DNA from: Zygnema cylindricum
Lineage: Eukaryota > Streptophyta > Zygnematophyceae > Zygnematales > Zygnemataceae
NCBI GenBank assembly: GCA_037447655.1
Contig: JBBHKE010001462.1
Location: 232,035 to 296,034, forward strand
Direction of reading: 5' to 3'
DNA length: 64,000 nucleotides
This document shows positions 23,601 through 47,786 of the stretch, in pieces; position 1 is the first letter of the stretch; each line of letters begins with the position of its first letter. Position numbers and translations under genes: made by a program. The notes beneath the pieces are model-generated. The model made no database searches and was not told the DNA's origin. It saw only the letters and a program-made list of their open reading frames with translations.

Positions 23601-26600
23601 AAGGGAAAAAAAGAGGAAAGGCAAAGGGAAAGGAAAAAGAAAAACAAAAAAAGAAGCTCAGGGAAAGGACCATAAACTGCCAAAAAAACAGTTTAAAAAA
23701 TAAAGAAAGGGAGATAAGTTCATGCTCTCATTCAATCGATGTCATTGACACATTTTTCTTGTACAGAAAGTTTTCTGATTTTGCCTAAAATAATCAAAAA
23801 ATCAAATAAAACAATGTAAAATATTCAATTCGTAAATGATGTAGGCAAATCCATGTTGCACAGTGTCCCCCCTCCCCCCTCCCTCCTCCCTCGGTCTCTA
23901 CCTCTTCGTTCCTCCCTTCCTCCTCCACCACATTTTCCGTGGTCTCTTTTTTCGACATTTTTTCCATGAGATCCACGACAAGTCGCTCGTTTTCTTGATT
24001 TAATCTCTGTTTTAAAAGAAAAAACAGAATAATAATCAAAATATTAAGAAAAGAAAACAAGAAAAAGGGAAAAGAAGGAAAGGAGAAAAAACTAAAAGAA
24101 GAAAAGGAGAAAAGGCCAAATGAAGAAAAGGAGAAGGGGAGAGAGGAGAAGAGGAGAAGAGGAGAAGAGAAGAAGAGGAGAAAAGAAGAAGAGGAGAAAA
24201 GAAGAGAAGAAGGGAAGACGAGAAGAAGAGAAGAAGAGAAGAGAAGAAGAGAAGAAGAGAAGAAGAGAAGAAGAGAAGATGAGAAGACGAGAGGAAGAGA
24301 AGAAGAGAAGAAGAGAAGAAGAGTAGAAGAGAAGAAGAGAAGAAGAGAAGAAGAGAAGAAGGGAAGACGAGAAGAAGAGAAGAAGAGAAGACAAGAAGAC
24401 GAGAAGACGAGAAGAAGAGAAGGAGAGAAGAAGAGAAGAAGAGAAGAAGAGAAGACGAGAAGACGAGAAGAAGAGAAGAAGAGAAGAGGAGAAGAGGAGA
24501 AGAGGAGAAGAGAAGAAGAGAAGAAGAGAAGAAGAGAAGAAGAGAAGAAGAGAAGAAGAGAAGAAGAGAAGACGAGAAGAAGAGAAGAAGAGAAGAAGAG
24601 AAGAAGAGAAGAAGAGAAGAAGAGAAGAAGAGAAGAAGAGAAGAAGAGAAGAAGAGAAGAAGAGAAGAAGAGAAGACGAGAAGAAGAGAAGAAGAGAAGA
24701 CGAGAAGACGAGAAGAAGAGAAGACGAGAAGAAGAGAAGAAGAGAAGACGAGAAGAAGAGAACGAAAAAGAAGAGAAGAAGAGAAAAAGAGAACAGAAGA
24801 AGAGAAGAAGAGAAGACAAGAAAAAGAGACAATGAGAACACCAGAAGATGAGAAGAAGAGAAGAACAAACAAGAGAAAAAAATAAGACAAGAGAAGAGAA
24901 GAAGAGAAGAAGAGAAAAAGAAGAAGAGAAGAAGAGAGGATGAGAAGCGAAAAGTCGAGCAGACAAGAAGAAGAGCAGAAGAGAAGAAAAGAAGAACAAA
25001 GAAGAAAAGAAGAATGAAGAAAAGAAAAGAAGAGAAGAAGAGAAGATAAGAAGAGAAGACGAGAAAACGAGAGGAAGAGAAGAGAAAAGGAGAAAACAAA
25101 ACCAAGAAAAAATAAAAAAAAGGATGTCGTTAAAACTGACCTCTGCCAATTCATTACCCTTTTTAACCTCCTCTCTCAACCGAGCAATCTCCTCTTTCGC
25201 CTTTTCAAACTCCTTTTTCAAATCCGAATCGGCATTTTCCAAATTTTTATTAAAATTTGATTTAGAAGCCGCTAAAAAAGCTGCCGATTTTTCAACTTCT
25301 GCGGTCGCGACGGCCAATTGCTGCTGTAGTTGACTCACTTTGACCTGAATAAATCAGAAAAAAAAAACATTTTTTTTTAGTTTTTGAGGGAATTTTGGGG
25401 AATTTTTGAAGTTTTTTACGGTAGAATGAGTGTTTTTTAATCAATTGCTGCTGTAGTTGACTCATTTGGACTTAAAAACATCAGAAGAAAAATTATTTCA
25501 AGCTTTCCAGGAGTTTTGGGGAATTTCTGACATGTTTTATGGTATACAAGAGGATTCTTTTTTTATATCAATTGCTGCTGCAGTCGGCTTACTTTGACCT
25601 CAAAATACCAAAAAAATAAAAAAAAATAAAGCGTTTTGGGCAGATTCTGAAATTTTTTTATCATGAAAAATGATTTTTTTTGGAGTTATTGAATATAGCT
25701 GATTTCTTTTGTCCTAAAAAGAGTATTTTTTTTCAGGTTTTCACAGCCACTTGTTGCTGTAGCTGACTCACTTTGACCTGAAAAAGTCGTAAAAAAATTA
25801 TCGATGTTTTGACGTTTTTGAAGAGTTAATTTTTTTACTCACCTTGACCTGGTAATGTCATAAAAATGATGATTTCCGAATAATTCTGAATTTTTTTATA
25901 TCACAATTGTTTTCAGGGTTTTCAACAATCAATCACTGCTGCAGATGACTAACTTTGACAAGAAATTATCGTAAAAATAGAAAATTAGAGGTTGTTTGTA
26001 GTGAATTGCATTGAGGGCGATTTTGCAGTACAAGATACGTGGTTTTGAAAATGTTACAGTATCATATATTGTATGAGTATTATACACCTTATGTTTATAC
26101 ACCTTATGCTTAATATATACCGTATGATTATTATATACCGTATGCTTATTATATACCGTATAACGGACGTATTAATGTTATCAACATCAATTGCGGTTCA
26201 CGGTGTATTGCATCTTTATTAAATGCAAAGGTACATACCATTTATTGTGTATAGAATATATCGAATTTTTACCTTTTGAGTTTTTTTTTAGAGGTTTTTT
26301 AAGGGTTTTTTTAGGGTTCTTGACAGGTTTTAAGGTTTGTTTGGGAAAAATAAAGCCTCGCAATACGATACACATAACATATTGAATGTCAATTTTTTTC
26401 TTTTTTTTGAATTCGGTACCATGCAACAAACATTAGTTTTTGAGATTTCTCATGCGGTTGACTATTTTTGACCTAAAAATCAATGTAGAAAGACAGGTTT
26501 TGAAGTTTTTTTTGGAATTTCTGACGTTTTATTGGCAATTGTTGATGCGATTGACTTAGTTAACTTTCACCTAAAATAATCGGAAAAAAAAAAAGTTTGT

Positions 26601-29600
26601 CTTATGCAGGGTTTTCTGGTCAATGATTTGCAGCTTGAGCAAAAATAATTTTAAACAAAAAAATAAAAAAAACCAAAATAAAAAATCCAAACTACAAATC
26701 TCTCCCTCACCTCGTAAGAAGCAACGGCCTTATTCCTTTCCGAAATCGCCGTTTCCTCCATTTTTTGGAGAGCCTCAGAATGTTGAGCCTGACTCACTAC
26801 CAGTTTTGTCTCCCACTCCTCCACCAATTTCTCTCTCTCCCTCTCATGTTTCGCAATCATTATCTCCTCCGCTCTCTGATTTCGTTCCTCCAACTCACGG
26901 AGAAGAGATTCGGTCTCGTTGAGTTTACTTTGCAGTAGATCTACCTCTGCCTGGACCACAAAAAAGAAAAAAAAAAACAATGAAAAGAAAATGATAAAAA
27001 AACAGTTTTAGGACACAATTTTGGACAGAAAAGTTTTCAAACTTTTTAGACAACTTTGAGACAGGTTTAGACAGTTTTTAAAAACTTTTCAACAGATGGG
27101 TTTCAGAAAATCTCTAGACAACTTACAAGAATTAGACAGTTTTGAGACAGTTTTGAGACAGTTTTGAAACAGTTTTAATGAAACATTTTTCAGACAGTCT
27201 TTGCTGTTTTCTCCTGCCATTATTTGTGGCAGAATGATGAAGAAAACGAGAAAAACAAAGTATAAATAATGCACGCCAAGGGAAAAAGATTAATGCACTG
27301 ATTAAAATAATATTTTTAAGATATACTTTTACAATTTACTTTTAAATTCAAATTCAGCGTCTCAAAAAGTTAGTACCTTGCGACATTTCTCCCCAAAGAA
27401 TGAGCACCCGAGGAGTCCAAAAAACCTCAAATTACCAGAATCAAGAACTCATATCTTTTCAAAATGCCAAAAAAAACTAAAAAGTTATATATATACTTTT
27501 GTTTTTTGACCTGCAAATTCAAAAACTTCATAAATCCATTTCCGCAACTGCAACCACAATACTAAAAAATCCCAACAAAACCCCAAAACAGCAAAACACC
27601 AATTGATAAAACCCAAAATTTTCTTCCTTTTTCATTTTCTTCCTTCTTTTCTTGTTTATTACCTGTAAATTAAAGGATCTCGCGGCCTCCATTTCGGCCT
27701 CCGATTGGATGGTGGCCGCCATAGTCCAAGACCTTTGAAGTTCCTCAAATAGTGTGGATGCCTGAGTTTCTAACTCCTGGAGAGACTTTTTTTGGGCTAA
27801 AACCTCCTGCTGTCTCTCCTCACACTCCCTCTCCTTCTCGTGGAACTCTTTTCGAACATCGTTCGCCTGTCAAGTATGTTGTATTTTTGTTTTTTATTTT
27901 TGTGTTTGTCTTTTATTTTTTTTGTTTTGTTTTAGAGAATGTTTTCAGAGGTTTTTAGGGTTTTTAGGTTTTTTTCTTTTCAGGCGTCTTTTTGGGGTTT
28001 TTTGGGAGTTTTTTTAACGTTTTTCTGGGATCGCTATCAGCCTTTTTTAAGGATTTCTTTGGGTGATTTTTAGGTGAGAAAATGGAGAAAGGGTAGGACG
28101 TGGAGAAAGTAGAGAAAATGGAGAAAGGGGAGAAAGGGGAGAAAGGGGAGAAAGGGGAGAAAGGGGAGAAAGGGGAGAAAGAGGGAAAAAGATGGAGAAA
28201 GTGGAGAAAATGGAAAAGGGGAGAAGGGGAGAAAATGGAGAAGGGGGGGAAGGGGGGAAAGATGTGGAGAAAGTGGAGAAAATGGGGAAAAAATGGAGGA
28301 GGAGGAGGAGAAGGGGAGAAGTGGAGAAAGTGGAGAAAATGGGGAAAAAATGGAGGAGGAGGTGGAGAAGGGTAGAAGTGGAGAAAGTGGAGAAAGTGAG
28401 AAAATAGAAAAGCTGGAGAAAGTGGAAAAAATGGAGAGGAAATTAGAGAGTGGGAAAAAAAAAAAAACACAATTTCACCTTCTTGAATGATTTCGTACGG
28501 AAATAATTAGCCTTTCAAGGCTTTTTTTCAGAGTTTTCAGTACTTACGAGATTGCGATAAAATTCAAAAATGCAAGAAGTGCAGAAAGAATTTAAAAATT
28601 GTTGAAAAAAAAAGGTCTTTCCTTCCCATGAAATTGCCCGGGGACGTCATTGGTTTATTAGTTATTAAGTAAAATAACGGTATTAGTTGCTAGTGAGACT
28701 AAAAACTGCAATAATGATCTGTAATTAGGTTAAAAAAACAAAAAATTGAATGCGGGAATTACTAGGAGAAAGTTTCAGAAAGTTATGAAAGCGCCCACCA
28801 CTACTTCAAAAAGTTAAAAAAACAATTAAGTGAAAAGAACAGTTTGTATTCTTAGATGGGGTGACAATTTCAGTCGATTGGCCTAAAAACATGAAAAAAT
28901 GAAAATTACAGAAAGAAAAATTTAGAGAATGAAGGTTCCATACCACCGTAAAAGGCATTCGTAAAAATGCAAAAAATAATTTCCCAAACCTTCACAAAAA
29001 TAATAAAAAGTTTAGACGCACCAAATGCAAATTTAACTCTGCAACGAAAGGAAGGAAAGGAAAGAAAAAATAATCACCATGTCTCTCCACTTTTTGATGG
29101 TATCTCGACTCCCGAGACTGAGTTCCACATTTCTTGCTCGAGTTGCAAAATTTAAACTCGAAACGGTTTCCACTGCGTCTCTCTGACCCGGACTGCAATT
29201 CACAATCACGATAGTTTTTGCCTCGCCACCTAAAAAAGTCAAAAAATCCTTTCTAAACTTTTAATTTTAAAAGAAAGTTTAACAATCGCAGTAGATTTCA
29301 CCTCGCCACTCAAAAAAGTAAAAAAATCCTTTTTAAATTTTGAGTTTTAGAAGAAAGTTTAACAATGATGGTAGTTTTCGCCTCACCACCTAAAAAAGTC
29401 CAACAATCCTTTTTAAACTTTTGAGTTTCAAAAGAATTTTTAACGATACTTAAAAAGTCCAATAATCCTTCGTAAACTTTTAATTTTTAAAAGAGAATTT
29501 AACAATCTCGATAGTTTTCACCTCACCACCTAAAAAAGTCAAAAAAAACCTTTTTAAACCTTCAATTTTAAAGGAAATTTTAATTTTAAGATCAAAGTTA

Positions 29601-32301
29601 GAAGGTGAAAAAGTCAATAGGTCCACAATCTTCTCCAAAATTATTCCTCCGGAATTACGCCCCACAATTATTTTAATCTTAACATATAAAAGTAGAAAGC
29701 AAAAGTCCCACAGTCTTCTCACAATCCTCTCCAAAATCTTGATTTTACCGATTTTAATTTAATTTTGACATACAAAGCCGTAACGGAAAAGGTGTCCCGT
29801 GCAAAAAACAAACAAAGCAAAAGCAAAATGGAGAAACGGAGGAAAAAGAAAACAGAGAAACGGAGAAACAGAGACGACAGAAGAGAAGAAACGGAGAAAT
29901 GAAACGGAAACAGAAATGGAGACGGAGACGGAGACAATGAGACAACAGAGATAACGGAAAGGGACATAATGGAGATCAAGACGGAAACGGAGAACGGAGA
30001 TAACGGAGATATGATTAAGGGAATTTTGGCAGGAAAAAAGATAAATTGAAGACGTTATTGCCTGTGAAAAAGACAATATCACGGAATTAACAAATGTGTA
30101 AAAACGGATTGCTTGCCTTACCAATTGAATCAGATAATAAAAGGGAAAGTTTTGAATTTGCAAAAGGAGGTACCCCTTTTTTTGCTGTGAGTGCAGATAA
30201 GCAGTCTCCAAGCCTGCAATTACAAACATTTAAAATATTTTAGAACATTTTAAAATATATATATTTTAAAACATTTAAAAATATGTTTTAAAATATTTTG
30301 AAAACATTTTATATCTGTTTATCTGTAATGCTCGTAAAGACTTGTTAATAAAATGAAAGAAAAATTTTCACACTGATAAACACTTTCTAATAGAAAAATA
30401 AAAACTTACGCAGAAAAAAACTTGTTAATGAAAGGAAAGAATAACTTCATCAGGTAAAGACTTATTGATAAAAAGACTTACAAAAGATTACACAGGTAAA
30501 GAACTGTTAATTAAAACAGATAAACTTACGCAAACAAAAATCTTGTTAATAGAAAACCCTAAACATGCTAATAGACAACCTAAATATGATAATAGAAAAG
30601 AAAAGAAAAAAACTTACGCAGATAAAGACTTATTAATAAAAAGTGATTCCGTTAATCGATCTCCACTAGCTTCTGAACGAGGCAATCTCTCACTTCCTGC
30701 CAGGTCAGCAAGATGCAATTTACTGTGTCTCTTCTCATTTGTCACCAAATTTGTCGACCGTACGTGGATCGTTACTATCCTGTGAAAATCAAAAATACAC
30801 AAAAAAAAAAATTAGGGCAAATGTGCGAGGACAACGGTTTTCAAGGAGTTTTTAAGACCGTTTTCAGGACAGTTTTTAGGAGAAAGTTTATTAATATCAT
30901 TTAGGACAAAGTTTTTTAATAACATTAAGGATAAAGTATTTAGGAGGCCGTTTTCAGAGGTTTTAAGGACAAAGTTTTTAAATAACCATATCAAATCCAC
31001 CTGCAAAGGTTCTTGTTCAATTGTTATCTGTTTTTTTTTTCTTTTTTTTTTTGCAAAAAGAAATTCTGGAAATAATCAGCAAGTAGCTTTTCTGTCGGCC
31101 ACTATAATTAGTGTGGGCCACTCGAACAAGAAAAAGATTCTGTTTGAAGTATTTCTCCATAAGGACAAATTAAATGGGTTTTATTTTGGTCACCAAAAAT
31201 ATTAAATCTGATTCTGTGCTTAAAACTAATGTCAACATCGAGACTAAAACAAAACTAGAAACCTAAATCAAAGCTAAAACGTTCAATTAAAACCAAGTCA
31301 ACACTAAAAACAAAACAAAACTAATAGAGCTAAAAACAAAAATAAAAATATTAAAACTCACATGTGCAAGTCAACACTAAAACTAAAACAAAACTTAAAA
31401 AGCTAAAAGCAAACCTTAAAAAGCTAACAACAAAAACAAAAATATTGAAACTCACATGTGCGAACGCTTCACTCGATCACTTCCTCCAGACAAATCTTTA
31501 ACTCGATTTAAATTTGCCGTCTTCAAAACTTTCGCGAAATCCACCGGAGTTTCTATTCTCTCCTCCATCAAATCTGTTACCACTACTCCGTCTCCCTGAG
31601 TTTGTCGAAATTCATAACTTTTTTGACTCGTTTTCGGCCCAATATCTTGTTGTTTCAATAACAAATCCTTGATCTGCAAATGAAATTTGACAAAAAATCG
31701 TAGGAAAAATAGAAAAAACGCAACTTACCATTTATACGTAAGATTTATAATACAAAAAACAACATCTTTTGCTGAATTCATTGACAAAATAATAAAACAA
31801 CCAATATGAAAGAATTACTCCCTCAAGATAAGTAAAAATTTAAGCTTCAAAAAAAGCAAAGTGTGATTTCCTAATTTCTCACCTGTTCATTATGTAATTC
31901 CATCACACAAACAGAAAAGTTAAATTTGGAGGAAAGAGCGATACTCGAATTTGCGAGGTCAAAAAGTTCGTCAAAAGCTCGATAATAAATTCCTCTGTCG
32001 TGAGATGGTCCTTCCTGACATCCTCGAATTTCCCCAAAAATATATCAAAAAACTGTGAAGCACTAAAAAAATACCGTTTATTTGGACAAAGCTATTAAGC
32101 GTTATAAGAATTATAAAAGTACTATCACCATGTTCCCTCCCCCTTCCCCTTCCCCCTCCGCCTCCTTCCCTCTCTCCTCTCCCCTCTCCTCCTCTCCCTT
32201 TCCCTCCATCTCTTTTCCCTTCTCCCTTCTCACTCTCTCACCTTTTCAAGTCAGAACAAATTGGCCAGATTGTCGATAAAGAGCTAACAGGCTCACCGAG
32301 G

Positions 32302-32384: not shown

Positions 32385-34558
32385 GCACCATTGTGTAAGT
32401 TTTTCCTGCGTTTGTTTGTCCGTATGCTAAAATACAAGAATTGTAGCCGTCCATAACAGAAGTCATAAGGGGCTGGATGTCCTGAAATAGCTTAGCTGCA
32501 TCCCAGAAACAGAGGGAGAGGAGGAGGGCGAGAGATGATAAGAGAAAGGGAAAGGAAGAGAAAACGAAAGATTGAATTGAAAATGGAAAGTAGGAGAGAG
32601 AAAGGAGAGAGGGAGAGAAGAGCGAGAGCAAGAGGGAGATGGAGAGAGATGGGTTTCTTGTAAGAAAATGCCAATACATAAAAAGAAATCCCCGAAAACC
32701 AAAAACAAATACATTAAAAACCAAAAACAAAAACATCAAAAACCAAAAAAACCCTTCAAATCACAGAAAAAAAACCCTTCAAAACAGAAAAAAAAAATGC
32801 TTCAAAACACAAAAAAAAAAAAAACCAGAGCAAATAAACTAACTCTTTACCTTGACTGACATGTGGCCCATAGACATGATCGCATTCAAAATCTTTTTTT
32901 GCCGCAGCTGGTTGGAAGCTTCCTCCTCCGGCCGCTTGATTAACGGAAACCGTAAAAGTATTTGGAAAAGTTGTCGTTGTCGCGCCTTCATCTTCAAATT
33001 GGGGTCGAACTCGACAAAAAACTCTAATGGGACCTGTAAAAATACGACCGTATTGAATATGTATTGAATATTATAAAGTGATCGGTAATAAAATTGTCGT
33101 TTCAGACTCATAATGTGAGTCCATTTTCCGTTTTTTTTTACTCGAAATGTTCATTTTTTGCATTCAAAGTGTCCGTTTTTTTGACTCGAATGTTTATGTG
33201 AATTGAGGAAAATGGGACGGGTCATACGTTTGTTATTTTTTGTGACTCAAAATGTCCATTGTTCTGACTCAAAATCTTCATTTCAATCATATGGAATGAA
33301 ATTGGTGTTGTTCTTCTCTACTCAAAAAATCCCCGTATGAACTGTGTAATTATGAGATCGGTAAAAAATTGTGGTCTTTTCTGACTCAAAACATTCGTAT
33401 GAATTATGTGAAGTGAGATCGGTGACAAAATAGTTGTTTACCATAGTAGGTATATACAATAACATATCGGTGATGAATTTTGTCATTTTTTCTGACTCAG
33501 AATGATAAGGATACCATCAGTCCTTTCTCACAGGCAGTAAATTACCACGACAACATGTCGATTTCTAGTGAGAAAGAGTACAAAAACGTGTGCTAAAAGT
33601 ACATACATATATATGTGTATATATATGAAATGTTTGACGACAAAATGACCATCTTTCTCATAGAAAATGAGAAAGACTAACGGTAAAGTTTGTCCCTTTT
33701 CCCAACAGAAGCTGAGAAGCACTGATGATAGTATGTATGTTTTTCTTATAAAAAGATTTCTTATTGAAAAAGAACCGACAAGACATAAAGTTGTGTCTAC
33801 TGTATTGGAAATAAGAAAGACCTATAGTAGAAAGACCTACAACAGTCCATTTTTCCTTTTCTTTTTTTCCTTTTTTGATGAGAGGAAACTAAGATGTATA
33901 TTTTCACAAAAATGGGAGACATCGATGGTTAACTTGCCTCTTTACTTAACAGAAAACAAGAATTAACTTTTGTATTTTATGCAATAAAATGCTTGCAGGA
34001 TACAGAAAAATAAAGTTCTTAAAACTGTTTTACAATAAATGTTTTGAGAATGTTTAAGTGGATGTAAGAAAAAGAGGTCCCAAAAATAGTTTCATATAAA
34101 AGGGACAGTTAATAAAACCAGATTTCTCCTCTTCCTCGTCCTCTCATCTTTTTCGCTCGTTTTTTTTCCTCTCCTTCTTTCGCCCTCTCCTTCCTCCCCT
34201 CTTCGCCATTCTTTTTCTTTCCCTCTAACTTTTCTATCGCTCCTTCCTCTCTTCCTCAAAGTTTCCCTTCTCCTTCTCCTCTCAACTCTCTCCCTCTTTT
34301 TCCTGTTCTTCCTGCTCTCCTCATTTACCTTTCCCTACCCTTCCCACTCCCTCTCCCCTAAAGCAGATAAAAAAGAGATAAAAAGGAGATAAAAAAGGGA
34401 TAAAAGGGAGATAAAAAAAAGAATAAAAAGGAGATAAAAAAGGAATAAAAATTCACCTTTGGAGTTTAAGAGATCGTTGAATAATTTTCTGCGTTCGATT
34501 TGGAGAGGAGCGATTCGCTGCTCCGAAGTTAAGGCCACCTGGTCTGGAAAATCAGAGT

Positions 34559-34709: not shown

Positions 34710-37700
34710 GAGAGGGGGAAGGGGGGGGGGTGGTAAGGGTGGGGAGCAGGAAGGGGCGGGAGGGAGGGAGAGGAGTGAAAGAAGGGGAGTGTGGAGGTCG
34801 GGGGAAAGGAACAGAGGGAGAGCAGAAGGAGAGGAGGAGAGGTGGACCAGGGAGAGGAGGGGAGAGAGAGAGCAAGGGGAAGAGTGAGAAAAGAGGAGCA
34901 GAATAGGCAGAAAGCAAGGACGAGGAACAGAGAGGGAGCGCGGGAGATAGCAGGGGTGAGGGAGAGGGAGAGAGCAAGGACAAAGACTAAAATGCGAAAG
35001 AGAGAAGGGGTGAGAACAAAGGTCAGGAAGAAGAAAGAGAGGGAGATGGGGTGGGCGTGAGAGAAAGAGAGCGAAGGAAAGGTGGAGAGCATGTGTGAAG
35101 TTGAAAGGGAGGGAGGAGAGGGTGAATGCTGGGCCGAGGGAGATGGGACCAGAAGAGAGAGGGAGAGAGAGAGAGAGCCCAGGGCCAGGACAGGGACGGG
35201 ACGGGGGAAGAGAGTGAGGCGAGAGGGAAAAAGGGCAAGAGCAGGAATGAGGGTAAAGGAGAGGGAATGGAAGGGGGAGAAGCAGGAGAAAAAAAGGGAA
35301 AAGGAAAAGGAGAACGAGGAGGAAATGAAGAGGGAGAGGCTAAAGGGAGGGGGAGGGTAAGGGGGGGAAAGAAGGGAGCTACAAACCATAGAGGATTGCC
35401 ATAGTATTAGAAATTGGTGTGTGTTTGAGGAATTATTGTGGTAACACGAAAACTGAAATATTACATCGTGACTCGGAATTAGTGTTAAGAAAGAAATAGT
35501 GTGGGAAATATTTTAGTTTTGTCCAGGACGAGGATGTTTGTTAACCGCTTTACCAAATTAGCGTCCAAAAAGAAAATTAGTATTTTTAACGCTACTTTAT
35601 GTTAAAAAAAATCAGACCAAATTAGTGTTATTAACGCTAATATTGTTCAGTGGGTGTACACTGACCTTCACTATTAAAGTTTAATTTACTTCGGGGACAC
35701 AAAAGTACTTTTTCTCATCAAAAATTTGTCCAATTTTAAAATTTCTGATTTTCAAACATGAAAACCCGAAAAAGAGCACAAAAGGTGAAACCATTACCAT
35801 TCAATTTCTCCAATTAAAGAAAAAAATCCAAATCCGATGAAGTTAAAGAGGTTTTAGTTCCCAAAAAAAGTCTACACGCTAATAACGACAGGCAGTGTAA
35901 ACTGCCCAACGCTTTTTAGTGTTAAGGGATTATGATGAATTATTAGTTAGTGTAAGAAAAAGAAGAATTACAATGTAAAACCTAATTTAATGTAGGGAGA
36001 CGTGCCGGCTTGTAGTTAGAAACACAGAATGTTATAATGGAGAGAACTGAGGGGTGAGAAAGAAGAGGGAGAGGTGAAGACAAGGGAGCAGAAGGGAGAA
36101 GGGAGAGAAAGCAGATGTAAATGAGGAGAGAGGGAGGGCGGGAGTGAAAGAAAACGAGTGGGAAGGGGAAGGAGAGGAGGATAGGGAGAATGGAATGTGA
36201 AAAGAGAAGGAGAGAAAAAAAGTAGGGTACAGAGGGATAGAGCCTCTCCAAGAATTAAGAAACTTGAATTCCATTGACTGGGGCTTCATTTTACCGAAAA
36301 ATTAAACATCACCTACGCATCTAATATCCTTTCTCTTTCTGCTAAAACGCCCAAATATCGAATAACTCGATTAGCGTTGATTTTTCTGTATATAAACATT
36401 AATTGCTCACCTTCAGTTTTTGCACTTTCTGCTAAAACTCCCAAATACTCAACTTAATTTTGCACTCAAATGTTTCTGTAAAAGATATATAACTTACCCA
36501 ATGTTCCTGCTCTTTCTGCTAAAACTCCCAAATATCCTTGAATCTCAGGCTTCGTTTAACAGAAAAAATATTTTTGTTTACTCACCTACTATGCTTTCTC
36601 TTTCTGCTGACCTCCCAAACATTAAGTAGATCAATTAACATTTCGATTTTCTGTAAAATAATTAAAATTTACTCCCCAAATGGCCTTACTTTTTGCAAAA
36701 CTCCCAATATTAAACAAATTGATTAACGTTCAAATATTCTGCAGAATAAATAAAACTTACTCACCCAAGGCTCTTGCTCTTTCTGCTAAAACTCCCAAAT
36801 ATCGAGTAACTCGACTTAATTTTGCGTTTGAGTATTCCTGCAATTCTCCAGCATCTTGTCGGAGGTCGTTCATTTCATCCCTCGCAGCCTGTGACGGAAA
36901 AAAAAAGGAAGAAAAAGAGTGGATATCTTTAAAGAAACCAGCATATGCCACATTATATTTTCAGCTAACATGATAGCGAAAAATGGATAATATACGAAAA
37001 CTAGCAATTGTTGGGAATGCTGTTTTATGTTTAACTGACATGATTGTAAAAAACACACAATGGATATCTTTACAAAAACTAACATACTTTTTTTACGTTA
37101 AACTGACAGGATAGTATTCAATTTTGACAGTAAAAATTATAAGAACATAGAATTTTCTGTCTAGAGGAAATAGTATTCTGTTCATTAAGATTATAATACC
37201 GTCAAATAAAATAGTAAATTGTCATAAAAGACAGAAAGCAATTTAAGTGTCTAAGAAGTTGTAAATCCGTTCAACAAGATAACACTGTCTAAGAAAAAAA
37301 AGGACTCGGTCAAAAAAGACAGGACCTCTAAGAAAGATAAAATGTTCTTCCTAACCAAAATAAAACTCGGTCCAATACATAGTACTCTGTCAAAATGGAC
37401 ATAATAAATCTAAGAGAGAGAGAAGTCTGTCTTATGAAATAGTATTATGCCTAAGAAGGCTGTTTACAATAACCACTTAAAAACAGCCGAGGAGAAAATC
37501 TGGAATCCACCAAAAAAAAAGGGCCAAAAATAGGTCTAAAATACATTCCTGTACCCGGTTTGGACTAAAAAAGGATGATTCCAAACCCAATGTGGTAGAG
37601 ACTAAGAGTTTTTCTGTGAAAAACACAGAAAAACTATGCCAAATTATCTGATGTATTGTCTTCTATAATGCCTATAATTCTCCATTAAAAAAAAAAGGAC

Positions 37701-38388
37701 AAAATCACAATCCTTCATCCCTGTAATTCTCCGTTAACAGCAGAATTTTATTGAGAAATAACAGGTACGAAGAAATGTAGTTATCATAAATACTATTTGT
37801 CAAAATATATGAGTTTATGGGAAAATGAGAGCTATAAAAAAAAAACAGTTTCTCGAAAAAAAAACATAAGTTATTCAAAAATTTAGGTCTAACTTCGGTT
37901 GAAGCAAATTATCCATCACAGCCTTTATCCTATAATTCTCCATTAAAATACGTTCCAAAGAAGAAAAAGTTTATCTTTATAAAACTAAGTTGATCAATAA
38001 ATTAAGTTTAGCAAAAAATTACCGTCAAGTCCATCTTCATTTGAATTACTTTATCCATCACAGAAGCAACAAACCGATTACTTTCCGTACTCCCCATCCT
38101 CCCTCCATAACTTTCCGTACGATCCAGAGAAGCCAAAGACATGGCCGACAAAAAACGAATGTCGTCCGATCCATGGCCGTCGACATGCGAGAAAGTAGAG
38201 CTATAACTGTCACACGTGTGGTCAACGGCTGTGGCAGAAGAAGAGAGAGGAGACACAGCTTCGGTAAAAGAAGGATTGCTCCCGGGAGAGCTCAGTCCCA
38301 TGGCTACCTCAAATTCCTGAAAATTGGCGTCCATTACTAGGTCGTCGTCTTCGTCGGAGAGTGGATAGTCTCCGGAAATTGCTCCCAT
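17611..38388 (-). CDS. KIN-14A/B (KAC-type) kinesin, about 24 exons
   Basis: Minus-strand gene read from ATG 38,388 (context GCCATGG) to TAG 17,611. I placed 23 exons with GT-AG borders and matching phases, plus one less certain exon ending at 22,179; together about 1,500 codons, a little longer than land-plant members. Order: N-terminal region, short coiled coil (QEYSNAKLSRVTRYLGVLAE), motor domain, SLGSRDTIKKWRD neck-like motif, long coiled coil, and the C-terminal region specific to this family. Land-plant homologues (KAC1/KAC2, also called KCA) act in actin-dependent chloroplast movement and anchoring at the plasma membrane and show little ordinary microtubule motor activity. The gene converges on the WRKY gene. 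Family assignment rests on continuous similarity over both ends; the function in this organism is inferred. Confidence 0.93.
20060..20740 (-). repeat. Intronic minisatellite, about 31-bp unit
   Basis: Kinesin intron between the exons at 20,947 and 20,037. About twenty imperfect copies of a unit reading AATAGTTTCTAGTTTGGG plus AATAGTTTTGTAC on the plus strand, with decay toward the high-coordinate end. It starts within 30 bases of the exon border. Confidence 0.9.
21652..21960 (-). repeat. GA-rich tract (CT on transcript strand)
   Basis: GAGAGGGAGA-type sequence on the plus strand directly upstream, in gene direction, of the kinesin exon ending at 21,651; it forms an extended pyrimidine tract before that acceptor. 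On the other side of the same exon (21,230-21,315) the strand bias is reversed. Confidence 0.85.
24100..25110 (-). repeat. (AGAAGAGAAG)n tract filling a kinesin intron
   Basis: About 1 kb of nearly uninterrupted AGAAGAGAAG / AGAAGACGAG units on the plus strand, i.e. TCTTCTCTTC on the transcript strand, occupying most of the intron 24,007-25,140. It yields the longest minus-strand frames in the window (Ser/Leu/Phe only), which are not proteins. Confidence 0.95.
25440..26660 (-). repeat. Tandem copies of the exon 13 acceptor junction
   Basis: The authentic junction (25,310-25,347, plus strand CAATTGCTGCTGTAGTTGAC then TCACTTTGAC|CTG) recurs in decaying form at about 25,442, 25,568, 25,750, 25,828, 25,928, 26,450 and 26,535, with spacers of about 80-200 bases where not interrupted. 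Each copy holds the first about 35 exon bases and the acceptor region. An ATATACCGTATGCTTATT minisatellite and a MITE-like end (CGGTTCACGGTG, near 26,200) interrupt the array. Confidence 0.85.
26060..26165. repeat. TATACCGTATGCTTATTA minisatellite
   Basis: Four to five imperfect copies of an 18-20 bp unit (TATACACCTTATG / TATACCGTATGATTATTA) inside the kinesin intron, next to a solitary family A-like terminus near 26,190-26,212. Confidence 0.8.
28085..28440 (-). repeat. GAGAAAGGGG / GTGGAGAAA minisatellite
   Basis: Intron between the exons at 29,078 and 27,866. Ten-base GAGAAAGGGG units at 28,125-28,185 grade into GTGGAGAAAATGG units; one 60-bp composite (GGAGGAGG flanked by GTGGAGAAA) is duplicated at about 28,290 and 28,350. 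Pyrimidine-rich on the transcript strand. Confidence 0.9.
29285..29540 (-). repeat. Tandem copies of the exon 10 acceptor junction
   Basis: The authentic junction (TTCGCCTCGCCAC|CTAAAAAAG on the plus strand, 29,205-29,240) is followed by three copies at about 29,287-29,315, 29,366-29,396 and 29,506-29,537. Each keeps about 25 exon bases and the acceptor CTAAAAAAG/CTCAAAAAAG, separated by TTTTAAACTTTTGAGTTT-like spacer. Confidence 0.88.
30336..30600 (-). repeat. Tandem copies of the exon 8 donor junction
   Basis: The authentic exon 8 end reads on the plus strand AAACTTAC|GCAGATAAAGA then CTTATTAATAAAAAG (from about 30,609). Copies lie at about 30,336 (GTAAAGACTTGTTAATAAAA), 30,406, 30,455, 30,494 and 30,524. 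Those at 30,406 and 30,524 retain the full ACTTACGCA, that is a TGC|GTAAGT donor. Confidence 0.85.
32297..32383 (-). repeat. (GA)n microsatellite at a kinesin donor
   Basis: About 43 GA dinucleotides, starting five bases from the donor of the P-loop exon (intron begins at 32,388 reading GTGCGTCTCTCT on the transcript strand). Length polymorphism here could affect splicing of the P-loop exon. Confidence 0.95.
34560..35390 (-). repeat. GA-rich intron tract with two (GA)n runs
   Basis: Kinesin intron 2. Perfect (GA)n at about 34,565-34,640 and 34,670-34,705, each followed by GAAAGGGAGAGGGGGAAGG, so a roughly 105-bp unit is duplicated. Beyond it the sequence is degenerate GGGAGAG/GAGGAGA to 35,390. 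Pyrimidine-rich on the transcript strand. Confidence 0.9.
35659..35897. mobile_element. TIR element with TA flanks in kinesin intron 2
   Basis: A 239-bp segment with inverted ends (left CACTGACCTTCACTATTA, right CTAATAACGACAGGCAGTG) and TA on both sides. It resembles the ends of the family A/D MITEs with extra substitutions. An older terminus of the same type (TTAACGCTAATATTGTTCAG) abuts it on the left, so elements are stacked here. No coding capacity. Confidence 0.6.
36330..36760 (-). repeat. Tandem copies of the exon 2 donor junction
   Basis: The authentic exon 2 end (plus strand CTCAC|CCAAGGCTCTTG then CTCTTTCTGCTAAAACTCCC from 36,761) recurs at about 36,334, 36,417, 36,490, 36,588 and 36,665. 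Copies keep TTTCTGCTAAAACTCCCAAA and a preceding CTCACC or TTACCC, i.e. the 5' splice site. Unit length is about 80-90 bases. Confidence 0.9.
36889..38022 (-). other. Kinesin intron 1, tandemly duplicated sequence
   Basis: Contains imperfect direct repeats: a TGGATATCTTTA..AACATGATAG unit of about 110 bases at 36,920-37,100, and CTATAATTCTCCATTAAA motifs near 37,670, 37,724 and 37,930. TTATCCATCACAG near 37,910 repeats exon 1 sequence at 38,050, suggesting the same junction-copying seen elsewhere but more decayed. Confidence 0.6.
38023..38388 (-). other. Kinesin exon 1 (N-terminus)
   Basis: 122 codons from ATG at 38,388 to a GTAATT donor (phase 0). Begins MGAISGDYPLSDEDDD, acidic and Ser-rich, then ASVMDKVIQMKMDLT, which leads into the coiled coil of exon 2. 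An open frame continues two codons upstream to a TTG, but the ATG in good context is preferred. The N-terminal 100 residues do not resemble the land-plant proteins. Confidence 0.8.
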
Positions 38389-41821: not shown

Positions 41822-41975
41822 GAGCTGGTGGCACAGTGGTAGTGCGTTCGCAGCTTCAGTGAAAGGTCCCAGGTTCAAATCCTGGCCGGCTCATCAATCC
41901 CTCTACTGGGATCGTCCATTCTATCCCCCGATTCTAGGAATCTTAACAACTTTGACTCCATACAAAAAAAAAGAA
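41822..41975 (+). mobile_element. tRNA-derived SINE
   Basis: The head, 41,822-41,893, folds as a full cloverleaf of 72 bases: acceptor GAGCTGG/CCGGCTC, D stem GCAC/GTGC, anticodon stem TTCGC/GTGAA, T stem CCAGG/CCTGG. It has an A box (TGGCACAGTGG) and a B box (GGTTCAAATCC). The anticodon loop AGCTTCA lacks the invariant U33, so it is unlikely to be a functional tRNA. It continues into about 75 bases of unrelated body ending in an A9 tail, the form of a SINE; the head resembles the plant Au-SINE type. The 3' boundary is approximate and I see no clear target duplication. Confidence 0.65.
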
Positions 41976-42260: not shown

Positions 42261-42619
42261 GCTATTACAACATGTTAGCATTCACAAATTTACAATTGAA
42301 GCAAAAAAGAACCATTTTAAAATGTCAAAATTGAATAATGGCAAAATCACAATTGAAAAAAAAGTATCCATTTCTGTATGTCAACACTTAATAATGATAA
42401 ATTCAGAATTGAAGCAAAAAATAACCATTTTTGTAATTCAATTTGAATAATGACAAAATCATAATTGAAAATAAAAAATCCATCATATCCCTTTAGAGCC
42501 TTAAGATGCTCCCACTCTGCTCCTCGAGGCCTAGACATGGCCGCCTGTGAAGAGGTTCGTGGAAGCTTCAAGTGTGGCTTCAATCGAGCGTTCAATAGCG
42601 GATTCAATGGCGGCTTCGT

Positions 42620-42960
42620 TGTAATGATGAACCGTACAATTTTTTTTCAAACTTCGCGCGCGGAAATGAAACATCACTTTTATAGATATACGTACGTTGT
42701 ATTCGTACAGTACAAATTTCTTTCAAACTTCGCGCGCCGAAATAAAACGTCTCTTTTTTGAAATTTCCGTACATAAAATCCGTACGATTTCGTACGAAAA
42801 GTATACGCATTTAACGAAAGATTCAAAATCTTAAAAAAATAACGAAATTTCGTATAAATGTCAAAATCCGTACGAATGAGACATCTATTCCTGAACCATA
42901 ACGATGTTCGTACATAATTGGTACAGTACTATCGCATTATACATCGTACTGTACAAAAAC
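42620..42960. repeat. GTAC-dense segment with a 75-bp direct repeat
   Basis: Contains thirteen GTAC tetramers in about 330 bases, many as CGTACG or CCGTAC. The segment TTTCAAACTTCGCGCGC followed by GAAAT.AAAC occurs twice, about 75 bases apart (42,650 and 42,722). Confidence 0.8.
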
Positions 42961-43011
42961 AGGCCCTTGGCAACCAAAGGGCAAAGCACCGGGTCGCCCG
43001 CGACTATTATT

Positions 43012-43037
43012 TATTACGCTAATAGCGATTCACGGTG
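43012..43037. mobile_element. Solitary terminus of the MITE family
   Basis: CGCTAATAGCGATTCACGGTG followed by TA, matching the right terminus of the family A/D elements. No matching left end was found within a few hundred bases. Confidence 0.5.
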
Positions 43038-43817
43038 TAGTTCCTCCGTGGATTCGATAAACTGAAATTACGGCCTACGCTCTAACACGTGTCTTCAAAA
43101 GCCAAAATTACTAACAACGGACAAAAGTTGTGAATGTCGGCTTTGCTCCAGTGTTCTCACCATTTTTAGCATTAGGTTTTGTCGTATTAAGAACATTTCC
43201 AGCGCAATTAATTTCAGCGTCCCAGTGTGATTCAAAGCGCGGTCATGAGGCGTCATAAATGATGTGACATTTGTAGCTAGCAGGTAACGGTATTTACGGC
43301 CATGTTCACATGTGGATTTTGTAACATCAACTGTTACAAATAGAAAGGGATTTCGACAGTGTTGCACATCGAGCATGTTGTGACGATAATGGATGGGTCT
43401 CGATAACCAGAATATCGTATCGATATATCATATCGCCAATAATAATAATAACAATAATAATAATAGCTATGCATCACAATCTTAAAGCGATAACTTTTAA
43501 TGTGGGTACACTTATTCCGGTGTATCTTGAAACTCTTTATTTATAAGCCGTCGAGCCTGAAATAATTATCTCAAAGAATTCGAACTAAAAGTTTTAGTGA
43601 CGATGATTTTTGGGATCCTGGTTTCTTGTAATTCGCTGCAAAAATGTAGCGATCTTTGATTTTTTAAGAAGATTATGATCCAATGAAATTATAAGTGTTC
43701 AATTGTTTAAATAAAATTGCAATTTGACTAAAATGATAAGTGAACCACCACTGCTCATTCTATCAAGGCAAATGGAGAGCCCTTCGTCAGCCGAATAAGT
43801 TAACGGGCCTGGGAGTA

Positions 43818-43912
43818 CACCGTGTATCGTTATAGGTTTTAGTATATTTTTTCCACTTGAATCATATTTTCTCCGTACATATCCAATTTTAGAGGCCTCC
43901 AATCAAATGGTG
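43818..43912. mobile_element. MITE, TIR family A (left half)
   Basis: TA followed by CACCGTGTATCGTTATAGG, then TTTTCTCCGTACATATCC and CCTCCAATCAAATGGTGAG, i.e. the left arm and part of the centre of the family. The right arm is missing. Confidence 0.55.
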
Positions 43913-44739
43913 AGAACCTAAATGGTGAGTTCGCGGACATCAAAAGTACCGTCGCGAAACGACGTCGTACTTTTGTATGATGACGCGACAGTTCACGTCA
44001 AACAAATTCAAGTTGGAATGACGCTTCGCGAAATGTCGCGAAAATGACAATATCCCAACAGACTATATATATGACTTAATCCGAGGAACTCTTTGTCTAC
44101 GCTATCTGAATGCTCTCGCTGTGTAATTCTACTATTCCTGTGAGTCTTTTACCTATCATTTTAGTACTCTGTTAGATCGAAGAGAGGCTATGTAAGGAGA
44201 TGCAGGTTAGCAGCAATATATCATTAGTTGATCATCGGAGTTCAAGAGTTGAGGAGTTAAAGACGTCTGTGAAGGGAGAAAATCCTTTTAAAATGCATTT
44301 TCTTTTGCCTGATGCTTGTTCTCTATCGTGGTGAATGCTTCCGCTTGTATTGCGTGGTGCTTACTTTAAATTCTTTGTGTGGAATTATTAATCATATCAA
44401 TAAATTCATAGAATTGTTCCTTGTCATACTAATTTAGACGATTTTAAGTTCTCAGTTTTATTGACACACAATCACGCACACACTCACACAAACACTCTAC
44501 CACACGCAACTTGTACACTAGACAATAAAACATACACTCAGAAACAGACAAAAACACCAACTCCAACACCATCGCTAAAACCTTCATGATTAAGCGCATT
44601 AGTATCCCACATTTTACAAAAAAAGTAAAAATGCCACATCATCACATTGCCAGGGTGTCAGTCAATACATCAGATTGACTTGTAATTTTGGGATCATGTG
44701 AAGACTTACCACACGAAACTTGTTCACGAGACCTTAGAC

Positions 44740-44935
44740 ACACACTCACATACTCAAACAAATACATAGGCACAAACATCAACACTAAGACTAACATCAG
44801 CACCAAAACTAACATCAACCCTAAAACTAACATCAACACTAAAAATAACACCCACCCCCAAACCCACATCATAATTGGGCCATCACATCACATCCCACCA
44901 TCATAATTGGGCCATCACATCACATCCCACCTCTG
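44740..44935. repeat. ACTAACATCA minisatellite and 33-bp duplication
   Basis: Five to six copies of CTAAAACTAACATCAACAC-type units at about 44,770-44,850, then CATCATAATTGGGCCATCAC and the following CATCACATCCCACC present twice in tandem at 44,869-44,932. Confidence 0.85.
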
Positions 44936-45827
44936 TCAGTAGGTCACATGATTATGCGCATAAGTTCCCACATTGCAAAAAAAAGAAATACCTCATGGTC
45001 ACATTGCAAGGGATAGAAATCAATAAGTAAGATCAATCGAAAAAATGTTGTTTTATTTGATGGATGGAACAGGAACAATTTATGTGATTTTTTGCGTATG
45101 GTATCTGAAATGTGCGTAGAATCGATAAAAGCTTGACAGTTTATCTTTGGTGTTGTAAAAATTTACTATTATGTTAGATATGGAAGCCTTTGTTGTGTTT
45201 TTTTTTTAATTTTTTTGTGTCACTTTCCTTAAATTAAATTTGTTTTAAGATAGCTTTTTATTCTTGTAGATTGTCCGTAAATTGTAGTATAATTTAAAGG
45301 TTAAAACAAAATTGAGCATGGAAGAGAAATTCAGAATAATAATAAAAAAAAAAAAATAAGCTCTCCAAAACATTTTATGCAGTAGATTTTTGCATTGAAA
45401 AAAATGAAAAGAAGCATTCCGAATAAGATTGAAGAAGGACATCTGAGAAAAAAAAAAGGTCATCTGTATAATAATTGAAAACAAATATCCGCAAAAGGTA
45501 AACAACTTCAAAATAAGGGTAGAGTGGTTAGGCCTAAGGAAAGGACAGAAAACTAAGTAGACAAAAAATAAGATGACCGATCAATACCAAAAAAGAATGA
45601 AGAAGAAAAAATGTGGTAATTAGAAATGCTTATCTCATAAGTGCTGTTGTCTACTAAACCTTAAAATCTATACTTTTAGGAATTATTAGCCTATGGAATG
45701 AATAGGCCACATTTTTTGGACGCACACACAGATGATTTCCCTAGCTCATCAAATTTGCACTTGTATTATTTTTCCAAAGTTTTTGAAATCATCTTTTCAT
45801 AAACCTACTGAAAAAACCGTAGGGATT

Positions 45828-45833
45828 TTTTAT
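45828..45833 (-). promoter_or_regulatory. Possible polyadenylation signal of the lectin-like gene
   Basis: AATAAA on the minus strand (TTTATT on the plus strand) about 170 bases downstream of the stop codon. Position is suitable; the hexamer alone is weak evidence. Confidence 0.35.
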
Positions 45834-46002
45834 TAACGACGATAGCTTACAAAGTTTGACTTTACCATTTGTCGAAACATAATTATAAAAGCAAACGTAT
45901 GAAGTGTCGGTGAAAAGAATAACCAAAAGAACCTCTCCCTCTCTCTCTTTCCTTCTCCTTCTCCCTCTCCCTCGGGGAAAAGTGACGATCTTAAAATGTT
46001 AT

Positions 46003-47786
46003 TCAAGTTAAACTATAATCGGGATCTTGTTTAGGGAATAAAATCCCATAATCGCCGTCGGATGCCAAATATTCATTTGCTTCCAAATTATTTCTTCGAT
46101 TCGAGTTGTCGTTTTGTGCAGAAAGCGTGATCGGTCCTAGATCTGAAGAGAAGTAGGGGAGGTAGAGGGAGAGGGGGAGGGTGAGGGGGAAGGAGAAGGT
46201 AAGGGAGAGGGAGAAGGTGGGGGAGAGGGAGTGAAGGAAAGGGAGAGGAAAAGAGATAGGTTTTGCCAACAAGATAGCTTAATATTATGTAAGAATAGAG
46301 TGCAAAACAATTGGACTGGAAAATATAGAACAATAACATTGTCAAAATTTTGAAATTTCCAAGACTTGAACAAAACATAATACAAAAACGTAAGCATAAA
46401 AACAAGGCAATGAAAGAAATAAAATAGAAACACCAGATACTCAACAGAAAAAAAATACCAGAAAAATAAACCAATCCCAAATCCAGAAACTCATATAGAA
46501 AAAGACAACTCTAAACGTATACAAAAATACAGAAATCTGTACCAATGCTAGTAGCCAAGGTTCGTCTGCACACACCACAATAAAAGTGAATTTTCGTAAT
46601 TAAGCCAAGACCCAATAGACAATAATGATAATAATAATATAAAACAAAACAAAAATATATACTTACGTGGAAAACAAAACCCATATTCTCACCTTTAGGA
46701 GTGGGCATGACTTGTGGATCACACACAACAAGATGTATGACTTTTGAAAAACAGCCAAAAAAAAAACAAAAACCAGACAAAACAGCATACAACAGCCACA
46801 AAAAACATAAATACACTCATACATATAAAATCAGATTCACATTCCCACCTCCAGGAATATCCATGACTTGTATTTCACACACCACAATTTGTTAGAAGTT
46901 TCAAAGTTAGTGAAAATTCTTAAGAACTAGATCCCAAAAACACACACAAAAAAGGCGATAAAGACATGTACATGCATAAACAAAAAAGAGAATCCACAAT
47001 CCCACCTTTGGGAGTGGCCATGACTTGCACTTCGCACACCACAATATATGTGGATCGCGGCACTTTAATCCAAACGTAGCGACCCTCCAGTCCGGCGCAC
47101 TTCACATCCAAAGGATACGCCGCGCCATTTTCTTCGAAGCTATAAGTCGCATTTGGCGCGCAGCGGAGATTGGGCGATCGCGCGCCCCAAGCTCTCACGT
47201 CGCCGACCCACACCTCCATTCCGTCCAAACGACTCAAAAGGCCGATAGTCGCTCCGTTATGCTCCGGAATTCCGTAAATTGTAACGGAATCTATGATGGA
47301 AGGCAGTCCTAAGTCGATTCGGATGGACGGCTGAGAGGAGAAAGCGGATTGGACGCATCCGGTGGAGTCAAAATCCTTCTTGGGATCGGATTTTGGGAAT
47401 ATCCCGTCGACGACATTGTTAGCGGTACACTCTTTTTTTTCGGTTCCGGCACATATTCCGCCACGGCCTACGGAGGACATGAAAACTGGAGCATGTAACG
47501 CCATGTTTACTGTTAAGGGAGCAGGGGAAACGATAAAGCAGATGAGTATCAGAAAAGGTTGTTTAGAATTATGTCAGTGAGATAGGAATAGTCAGCATTG
47601 CCACTTTTATTTTAGTCACAAAACGAGAGGGAGACGGAGAGGAAATAAGCTGGAAATGAAGAGGAAGAGGAGAGGGAGAGGAAGAGAGAGGGACACAGAC
47701 GTACCATCCTTTGCAAGCACTCCTTGAAGAGAAGTCAGCGTTAAGATAATCGCCATCTCTTTCGCACGTGCGAATACCTGAGCCAT
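46003..47786 (-). CDS. Secreted F5/8 type C / fucolectin-like protein
   Basis: Three exons, 47,705-47,786, 47,006-47,509 and 46,003-46,142, join in phases 1 and 1 into 241 codons. The first exon (ATG in GCCATGG context) encodes a hydrophobic stretch, AIILTLTSLQGVLA, that fits a signal peptide. The body has the pattern of the galactose-binding jelly roll of fucolectins and discoidins: NNVVDG, STGCVQSA, IRIDLGLPSIIDSVTIYG, RLDGMEVWVGD, then CAGLEGRYVWIKVP and CEVQVMA near the end. The conserved Cys residues are those of the fucolectin type. It probably binds a sugar outside the cell or at the wall. The C-terminal 46 residues from the last exon are Asn/Asp-rich and not part of the fold. Ligand and role are unknown. 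Confidence 0.8.
46545..46900 (-). repeat. Three decayed copies of the lectin exon 2 donor junction
   Basis: The end of exon 2 (encoding IVVCEVQVMATPKG, then a GTGGGA donor at 47,005) recurs in the same orientation at about 46,849-46,895 and 46,692-46,735, and more decayed at about 46,545-46,575. The first two copies translate to VVCEIQVMDIPGG-like and VVCDPQVMPTPKG-like peptides and keep a GTGGGA/GTGAGA donor. Spacing is about 155 bases. Confidence 0.9.

Follow-up and report, generated by a model that had tools for sequence, protein, structure and literature searches.

One important question raised by this locus is why the end of an exon, together with its splice site, is repeated several times inside the adjoining intron at several junctions of two genes. 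Within the window (the whole 64-kb stretch of Zygnema DNA analysed), two minus-strand genes, one for a kinesin and one for a lectin-like protein, were modelled with 24 introns and 48 junctions. The kinesin is of the kinesin-14 type, and its motor region, encoded by exons 4 to 10, aligns to KIFC3 in a single alignment with short gaps. The match of the lectin-like gene to a Pfam galactose-binding domain is weak and lies under the curated cut-off. Relatives of the kinesin were sought in genome contigs and viral contigs, and none was confirmed. The donor of kinesin exon 17 is uncertain, with a weak context, and the introns next to this exon contain no repeats at the threshold. A WRKY domain is present in the window; in animals, WRKY domains are rare or not known to occur.

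Five arrays of junction copies were found at the places and on the sides given in a preliminary description of this DNA, and the gene models and the 36-mer tests against controls agree on them. They involve the acceptors of kinesin exons 10 and 13 and the donors of exons 2 and 8 of the same gene and of exon 2 of the lectin-like gene, with the donor of kinesin exon 7 as a borderline addition; all these features are on the minus strand. In the five arrays the copies are successive, head-to-tail and in direct orientation, and every array sits inside a single intron of the predicted gene models. Kinesin exon 13 (25141..25344, modelled with an open frame), whose acceptor at 25344 marks where the array meets the exon, is accompanied by seven intronic acceptor copies within 25442..26604, located at 25442-25525, 25569-25621, 25743-25797, about 25835-25870 (truncated), 25930-25986, 26457-26520 and 26563-26604. 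Six of them were detected by local alignment and the one near 25835 by alignment of the copies. The unit is ~127 nt long, with ~97 intronic and 30-35 exonic nt. Kinesin exon 10 (29078..29229, acceptor 29229, based on the gene model and the KIFC3 motor alignment) has four acceptor copies at 29279..29583 with a unit of ~80 nt, 31 of them exonic; no exonic stretch is present in the copy at 29449-29498. Kinesin exon 8 (30618..30779, donor after 30618, with the same two lines of evidence) has four donor copies within 30335..30555 (30513-30555, 30440-30475, 30389-30433 and 30335-30353), which carry 24-26 exonic nt plus some intron. Five donor copies of kinesin exon 2 (36765..36888, donor after 36765, gene model) span 36329..36704, with a unit of ~89 nt that reaches 31-61 nt into the exon. 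Beyond the exon's own copy, the donor of lectin-like exon 2 (47006..47509, donor after 47006, gene model) has two copies (46812-46888 and 46671-46734) and a weak one (~46515-46585) within 46515..46888; here the unit is ~157 nt, 40-42 of them exonic. The sixth junction, the donor of kinesin exon 7 (31456..31673, donor after 31456, gene model and KIFC3 motor alignment), was absent from the preliminary description. Its copy (31326..31374, 94 nt downstream of the donor) repeats the splice site, yet only 6-8 exonic nt match, and for this reason it was ranked as borderline. The copies are mostly in register, with units of ~80-157 nt (~80, 80, 89, 94, 127 and 157); the exonic stretch per unit is ~25-61 nt at the five junctions, and across the five main arrays the copies are 0.56 to 0.89 identical to the exon in exon-derived columns. 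At exons 7, 8 and 10 the reading frame and the motor homology support the predicted use of the exon-contiguous splice sites.

The specificity of these matches was assessed with 36-mers from the exon ends of the 48 junctions, scored against their own adjacent intron in the same orientation. Scores of 57 (exon 2), 50 (exon 13), 40 (exon 8), 37 (exon 10) and 34 (lectin-like exon 2) were obtained, and the remaining 43 of the 48 junctions scored 24 or less. Control maxima were 30 for the reverse-complemented own introns (n=48), 29 for other introns, where 0 of 1104 comparisons reached 34, and 29 for 36-mers taken from exon interiors. With a query centred on the junction, the exon 7 donor scored 50, against a maximum of 38 in 1104 controls. 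Lectin-like exon 2 (33) and kinesin exon 2 (31) were not above the controls with this query, so both rest on the exon-terminal test. Four other junction-centred scores, those of the kinesin exon 5 donor (38, the same as the highest control), the exon 16 and 18 acceptors (33 each) and the exon 3 donor (31), were taken as simple-sequence matches.

The preliminary description knew of no standard name for this pattern. A published name does exist: in the passages of the reports drawn on here, 'mirage' minisatellites, a known yet little-studied kind of repeat named in lancelets (PMC3087553), are tandem repeats across an exon-intron boundary, found in lancelet Adh3, in the globins BflGb6 and BflGb9, in TnC and in PGBD5 (PMC3087553, PMC3902484). 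According to the same passages, they occur at 3' or 5' boundaries with units of 10-160 bp, many of the units, though not all, carry AG/GT signals, and undisturbed splicing was reported or inferred (PMC3087553, PMC3902484). The Zygnema arrays share the head-to-tail arrangement in the same orientation (no inverted matches at the same score), a unit that spans the boundary with exon end and splice site at five junctions (6-8 exonic nt at exon 7), the occurrence on both acceptor and donor sides, and a unit length (~80-157 nt) inside the reported range. They differ in that their copies are far more degenerate than the units of BflGb6, which are 81-100% identical (PMC3087553, PMC3902484). Near-identity of the units is a property of BflGb6 and others that lies outside the mirage definition as quoted, and in the text on PGBD5 the lancelet mirage repeats are described as imperfect (PMC3902484, PMC3087553). 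Our literature search under the name 'mirage' returned reports from lancelets only, and a further search found no paper on duplicated splice junctions that leave splicing unaffected. The five arrays are most likely degenerate 'mirage' minisatellites, probably a by-product of tandem duplication throughout the introns; what is new here is the presence of five or six degenerate mirage cases within one 64-kb window.

Other comparable systems, as far as the quoted parts of these reports go, differ in their outcome or scale. In potato RdRp, a tandem duplication crossed an intron-exon boundary, as in the present arrays, and included the 3' splice signals (PMC4974935), and a new intron arose there, whereas no extra exon or intron is present in the gene model here. 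In Drosophila genes, introns have been gained when a stretch with splice motifs was duplicated in tandem and one of the copies became intronic (PMC2891723); in that case coding sequence with a proto-splice site was doubled and new intron positions resulted, whereas the present arrays multiply an existing junction within an existing intron. Human genes in segmental duplications contain variable internal tandem repeats, some of them at exon-intron boundaries, from which novel introns may form (PMC2812944). Those repeats are minisatellite-sized, as here, but they are recent, copy-variable and often exonic, whereas the Zygnema arrays are diverged and intronic. Rogers and Bendich (2025) described short direct repeats close to intron borders (PMC11782384). 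Direct repeats near splice sites are common to both cases; theirs are of 4-30 bp, were compared between the two borders of one intron and were interpreted as insertion scars, whereas here the units are long and one junction is repeated several times.

The growth of introns by tandem duplication, which had been proposed for this DNA, was supported. Of the 1471 40-mers tested from the introns plus 80 nt of flank, 209 recurred in direct orientation within their own stretch and none had an inverted match of equal score; an entropy filter had removed 572 of 2043 windows as low complexity, and consequently purine-rich and CT-rich arrays were not judged. Direct repeats covered 3302 of 17399 intron bases. 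Seven arrays are purely intronic, all on the minus strand in the kinesin gene: a 31-nt array with no exon contact in intron 19 (20057..20724), degenerate repeats in intron 3 (33077..33516), repeats with spacings of 63 and 88 in intron 7 (30856..31005), of 87 in intron 11 (27043..27182) and of 92 in intron 21 (18991..19130), an 18/36-nt array in intron 12 (26061..26180) and a pair with a spacing of 258 in intron 1 (37653..37962). In another gene, on the plus strand, window self-comparison revealed a direct repeat pair (9492-9667 / 10541-10717, within 9492..10717) that includes the terminal part of an exon-like frame with its GT donor. This pair, absent from the earlier list, is either a recent copy of a junction or a duplicate made in the assembly.

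We consider it very probable that ordinary tandem duplications chanced to span a junction, were tolerated through exon-contiguous splicing and then decayed neutrally; the evidence comes from the sequence of two genes. Short tandem duplications of ~80-160 nt would arise throughout the introns by slippage or unequal exchange. At 5 of the 48 junctions, as the sequence shows, one end of the duplicated unit falls ~25-61 nt inside the exon (6-8 nt at a sixth), so that the splice site is copied along. Splicing would keep the site contiguous with the full exon, leaving the protein unchanged and turning the other copy into intron. The unit would then have reached the 2-8 copies, mostly in register, of the present layout, with the intronic copies free to decay and the exon copy under selection. 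Such a process predicts that the exon copy is on average the closest to the others, and the comparisons were consistent with this. The exon copy was nearer to the intronic copies (571/760 in exon-derived columns, 698/1160 in intron-derived columns) than these were to one another (826/1221 and 881/1642, respectively). Among the intronic copies, identity was 0.68 in the exon-derived part versus 0.54 in the intron-derived part, which counts against plain neutral decay of one unit, since this predicts equality. The two parts were about equal at exon 10 (76/93 versus 122/155), and the gap outside exon 10 is put down to indels in A/T runs as a candidate cause.

A second possibility, which we regard as unlikely, is that tandem duplication shows a moderate preference for transcribed splice junctions, with R-loops or splicing-coupled breaks as conceivable causes, so that exon ends would seed intron growth at about twice the chance rate. 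Repeat coverage was even along the introns, at 0.17 within 0-49 nt of the junction and 0.17-0.26 deeper. Repeats touched 14 junctions versus 10.3 +/- 2.9 expected under rotation, which is no significant excess (P = 0.14), and eight of these 14 lie outside the described arrays (exons 3D, 5D, 9A, 15A, 18A, 20A, 21D and 23A), with exon-terminal scores of 24 or less. In a placement model cruder than the rotation, 6 of 13 arrays spanned a junction against 2.6 expected (P = 0.027), or 5 of 17 against 3.0 expected (P = 0.16), depending on the treatment of exon 7 and of four simple arrays; the list of arrays was compiled by the analyst, and junction-spanning arrays are probably detectable for longer. 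These figures leave room for a weak bias of the arrays toward junctions.

The preliminary description had gone further and proposed that introns grow repeatedly and directionally, perhaps by replication slippage or by repair anchored at the junction. In such a model, the exon end would be copied time and again into the adjoining intron through breaks or slipped replication at splice sites. Five clear junctions of 48 with a borderline sixth, the placement model (P = 0.03-0.16) and the better conservation of exon-derived than of intron-derived parts are in its favour, as is the decay with distance seen at exon 13 and, by whole-unit identity, at lectin-like exon 2. The decay growing with distance from the exon that had been described is not a general trend across the five arrays. 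Identity of the exon-derived part dropped with distance in the exon 13 array only (rho -0.72), and the remaining arrays showed a rise (rho +1.0, +0.87, +0.70 and +1.0, with 3, 3, 5 and 2 copies). Whole-unit identity fell at exon 13 and at lectin-like exon 2 (0.66, 0.61 and 0.53) but not in the other three arrays. In exon 2 the nearest copy had the lowest identity in its exon part (0.56), and the farthest (36329-36370) matched the exon in 39 of 42 positions over its best stretch. The exonic endpoints are mostly common within an array: +30 to +35 in four of the six locally aligned copies of exon 13 (+16 and +8 in the two farthest), about +31 in three of the four copies of exon 10, -24 to -26 in all four of exon 8, -40 and -42 in lectin-like exon 2 and, more loosely, -31 to -61 in exon 2. 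This indicates a tandem array rather than scattered copying. The even coverage, the rotation result and the seven purely intronic arrays also argue against junction-anchored copying, which we judge decidedly unlikely; junction-anchored machinery is not needed.

It is very unlikely that the copies are functional decoy or alternative splice sites, kept to tune splicing or to yield isoforms. Many copies do retain GT or AG, as had been noticed, and 16 of 24 have it exactly in place, but this is no excess over the 15.1 expected from other dinucleotides in the same copies. Predicted use of the decoy sites led to an in-frame stop in 19 of 19 cases, and the extension was a multiple of three in just eight of the 19. 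The copies have no evident function. An assembly artefact, with copies made by duplicated reads or collapsed repeats, could account for the 9492/10541 pair (98% identical), but it is extremely improbable for the main arrays, whose copies diverge by ~10-45% from the exon in exon-derived columns, the substitutions and indels being scattered, a pattern that misassembly does not yield. Scarcely credible, despite the location of the repeats at intron ends, is the insertion of introner-like or transposon-borne copies at introns, because introner elements share sequence among many introns of different genes and no such sharing was found within the window: none of the 1104 exon-terminal comparisons with other introns reached 34, and in the window self-comparison (dust filter on) direct matches were confined to one intron and its bordering exon, with the exception of one purine-rich match that links intron 2 to sequence past the last exon of the kinesin.

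As degenerate mirage repeats, the arrays display in their sequence one route by which introns lengthen. Repeats that span a junction are also natural experiments on splice-site choice, since similar sites are placed ~80-160 nt apart and the cell must choose, among similar copies, the one joined to the full exon. Five or six cases in 48 junctions seems dense and, if this were true genome-wide, Zygnema would lend itself well to measuring the frequency with which a duplicated splice site is tolerated.

The kinesin gene was modelled on the minus strand from exon 1 (38388-38023) to exon 23, which starts near 18050, and the lectin-like gene (47783-46003), also of the minus strand, was modelled in the same way, with exon borders set from the reading frame and the GT/AG context. 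Exons 1-22 of the kinesin gene are joined with no stop in frame. Exons 4-10 correspond to the motor region, which gave a single alignment with KIFC3 with short gaps, and the motor domain was recognized by Pfam (E = 4.8e-87). In two contig collections that were scanned, no relative of the kinesin could be confirmed. For the lectin-like protein only a weak Pfam match, under the curated cut-off, was obtained. The exon numbering of the preliminary description coincides with that of the model built here. A WRKY DNA-binding domain (~12660-13780, divided between two exons; 61 bits against Pfam WRKY with the pieces joined) is present in the same window as this kinesin-14 and the lectin-like gene, and its presence speaks against a lancelet or another animal as the source of the DNA. 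A tRNA-Lys (CTT) was identified at 41822-41893 by ARAGORN, and as a tRNA by Rfam.

Arrays, that is, several same-orientation copies of an exon end and its splice site inside the adjacent intron, had been described at five junctions. The 36 exonic nucleotides next to the splice site were compared with the adjacent intron at 48 junctions (24 introns), and exactly these five stood out: the donor of kinesin exon 2 (score 57), the acceptor of exon 13 (50), the donor of exon 8 (40), the acceptor of exon 10 (37) and the donor of lectin exon 2 (34). The remaining 43 of the 48 junctions scored 24 or less. Control scores did not exceed 30 when each intron was reverse-complemented (n = 48), 29 for exon-terminal 36-mers against other introns (n = 1104) and 29 for 36-mers taken from the interior of exons and compared with the same intron. 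In a second test, with a junction-centred query of 12 exonic and 24 intronic nucleotides, the donor of kinesin exon 7 scored 50, the maximum of 1104 control comparisons being 38. The exon 5 donor equalled this maximum (38), and lectin exon 2 (33) and exon 2 (31) were not above the controls. The exon 7 copy repeats the donor and the downstream intron with an exonic match of only 6-8 nt, and it is therefore a borderline sixth case. The junction-spanning minisatellites of the two genes are real and form a clear set.

The repeat units measure ~127 nt in exon 13, ~80 nt in exon 10, ~89 nt in exon 2, ~94 nt in exon 7, ~157 nt in lectin exon 2 and ~80 nt, with a 42-nt step, in exon 8. The exonic end of the copies, counted inside the exon (minus from the donor, plus from the acceptor), is mostly common within each array: -24 to -26 in all four copies of exon 8, -40 and -42 in lectin exon 2, ~+31 in three of four copies of exon 10, and, in exon 13, +30 to +35 for four of six locally aligned copies, with the two most distant ones stopping at +16 and +8. 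The array of exon 2 is the most irregular, its copies extending 31-61 nt into the exon. These largely common ends indicate the layout of a tandem array and not independent captures of the junction.

A decay of the copies increasing away from the exon had also been proposed, and it is not a general rule. From near to far, identity in the exon-derived columns falls only in exon 13 (0.82, 0.76, 0.89, 0.76, 0.65, 0.74; rho -0.72), whereas it rises in exon 10 (0.77, 0.81, 0.84), exon 8 (0.77, 0.81, 0.81), exon 2 (0.56, 0.66, 0.77, 0.81, 0.74) and lectin exon 2 (0.76, 0.78); these values omit truncated or weak intronic copies (the fourth of exon 13, third of exon 10, second of exon 8, second of exon 7 and third of lectin exon 2), and copy numbers are too low for testing a gradient in any single array. 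The farthest copy of exon 2 is identical to the exon at 39 of 42 positions. Whole-unit identity falls in exon 13 (all copies: 0.73, 0.61, 0.60, 0.56, 0.54, 0.54, 0.62) and lectin exon 2 (weak copy included: 0.66, 0.61, 0.53), is flat in exon 10 (all copies: 0.81, 0.81, 0.78, 0.81) and goes up and down in exons 8 and 2.

Repeats were counted across the 24 introns together with 80 nt of flank. A direct repeat within the same stretch was found for 209 of 1471 tested 40-mers, and none had an inverted one reaching that score; 572 of 2043 windows had been set aside as of low complexity, a filter that leaves the long purine-rich arrays of kinesin introns 13 (24051-25096) and 10 (28076-28437) largely unjudged. 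When the partner was sought within 1 kb, low-complexity windows excluded, direct and inverted repeats were found in 186 and 2 of 1092 intron windows, 33 and 2 of 405 in the WRKY region, 7 and 1 of 407 in exons, and 182 and 121 of 2923 in the rest; none of the 380 windows of the retroelement frames had a direct repeat. These retroelement-like frames (55891-59720) include a weak zinc knuckle, an aspartyl protease and a piece of C5 cytosine DNA methylase. At 11297-11496, 24-nt repeats lie in an open frame, apparently a coding exon of the WRKY-region gene. Another direct repeat pair (9492-9667 and 10541-10717; 98% identical over 177 columns) contains the end of an exon-like frame with its GT donor, and represents either a recent duplication of the junction or an artefact of assembly; a trypsin-like fragment (Pfam Trypsin, from ~10202) lies between its copies.

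Repeats account for 3302 of the 17399 intron bases, with a coverage of 0.17 at less than 50 nt from the junction and 0.17-0.26 deeper. A repeat occupies part of the nearest 20 intronic nucleotides at 14 junctions, against 10.3 +/- 2.9 expected when coverage is rotated inside each intron (P = 0.14). In kinesin intron 19, a large 31-nt array (20057-20724) occupies most of the intron and stops ~20 nt short of the acceptor of exon 20 (20037), so that it does not reach into this exon. With no general gradient, even coverage and this P value, the directional, junction-anchored mechanism of the preliminary description is unsupported in the two genes. In a cruder model, in which the unit of each array was placed randomly in the genes, 2.6 spanning arrays were expected among 13; six were observed including exon 7 (P = 0.027) and five without it (P = 0.096). 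Adding four simple arrays (17) gave 3.0 expected, with P = 0.056 for six and 0.16 for five. Since the array list was compiled by the analyst, and spanning arrays probably stay recognizable for longer, given the slow change of the exon copy, this excess is a hint at most; a weak bias of arrays to junctions is possible.

The exon copy on average resembles the intronic copies more (0.75 in exon-derived and 0.60 in intron-derived columns) than these resemble each other (0.68 and 0.54), as expected if one copy is under selection and the others are free to drift. Of 24 copies, 16 retain the splice dinucleotide exactly in place, against 15.1 predicted from the other dinucleotides of the same copies, and for all 19 copies that have GT or AG at the site or close to it, use of the decoy would lead to an in-frame stop. 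When intronic copies are compared with one another, conservation is higher in exon-derived columns (826/1221) than in intron-derived columns (881/1642), which counts against the simplest neutral model. In the array with the best alignment, that of exon 10, both classes are about equal (76/93 and 122/155), and indels in A/T runs are the suspected cause of the difference.

Junction-spanning minisatellites are of a kind already known. In lancelets, where they are named mirages, splicing is reportedly undisturbed and unequal or intra-strand crossing-over has been proposed (PMC3087553), and imperfect mirages of 60 and 108 bp are reported in lancelet PGBD5 (PMC3902484). A literature search with this name and repeat or intron terms found none beyond lancelets. 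Tandem duplication over an intron-exon boundary is reported to have given a new intron in a potato gene (PMC4974935), and repeats at human exon-intron boundaries have been mentioned as one origin of new introns (PMC2812944). The data agree best with a mechanism in which ordinary tandem duplication would create the arrays, splicing would tolerate the duplicated junctions and the intronic copies would then decay neutrally.
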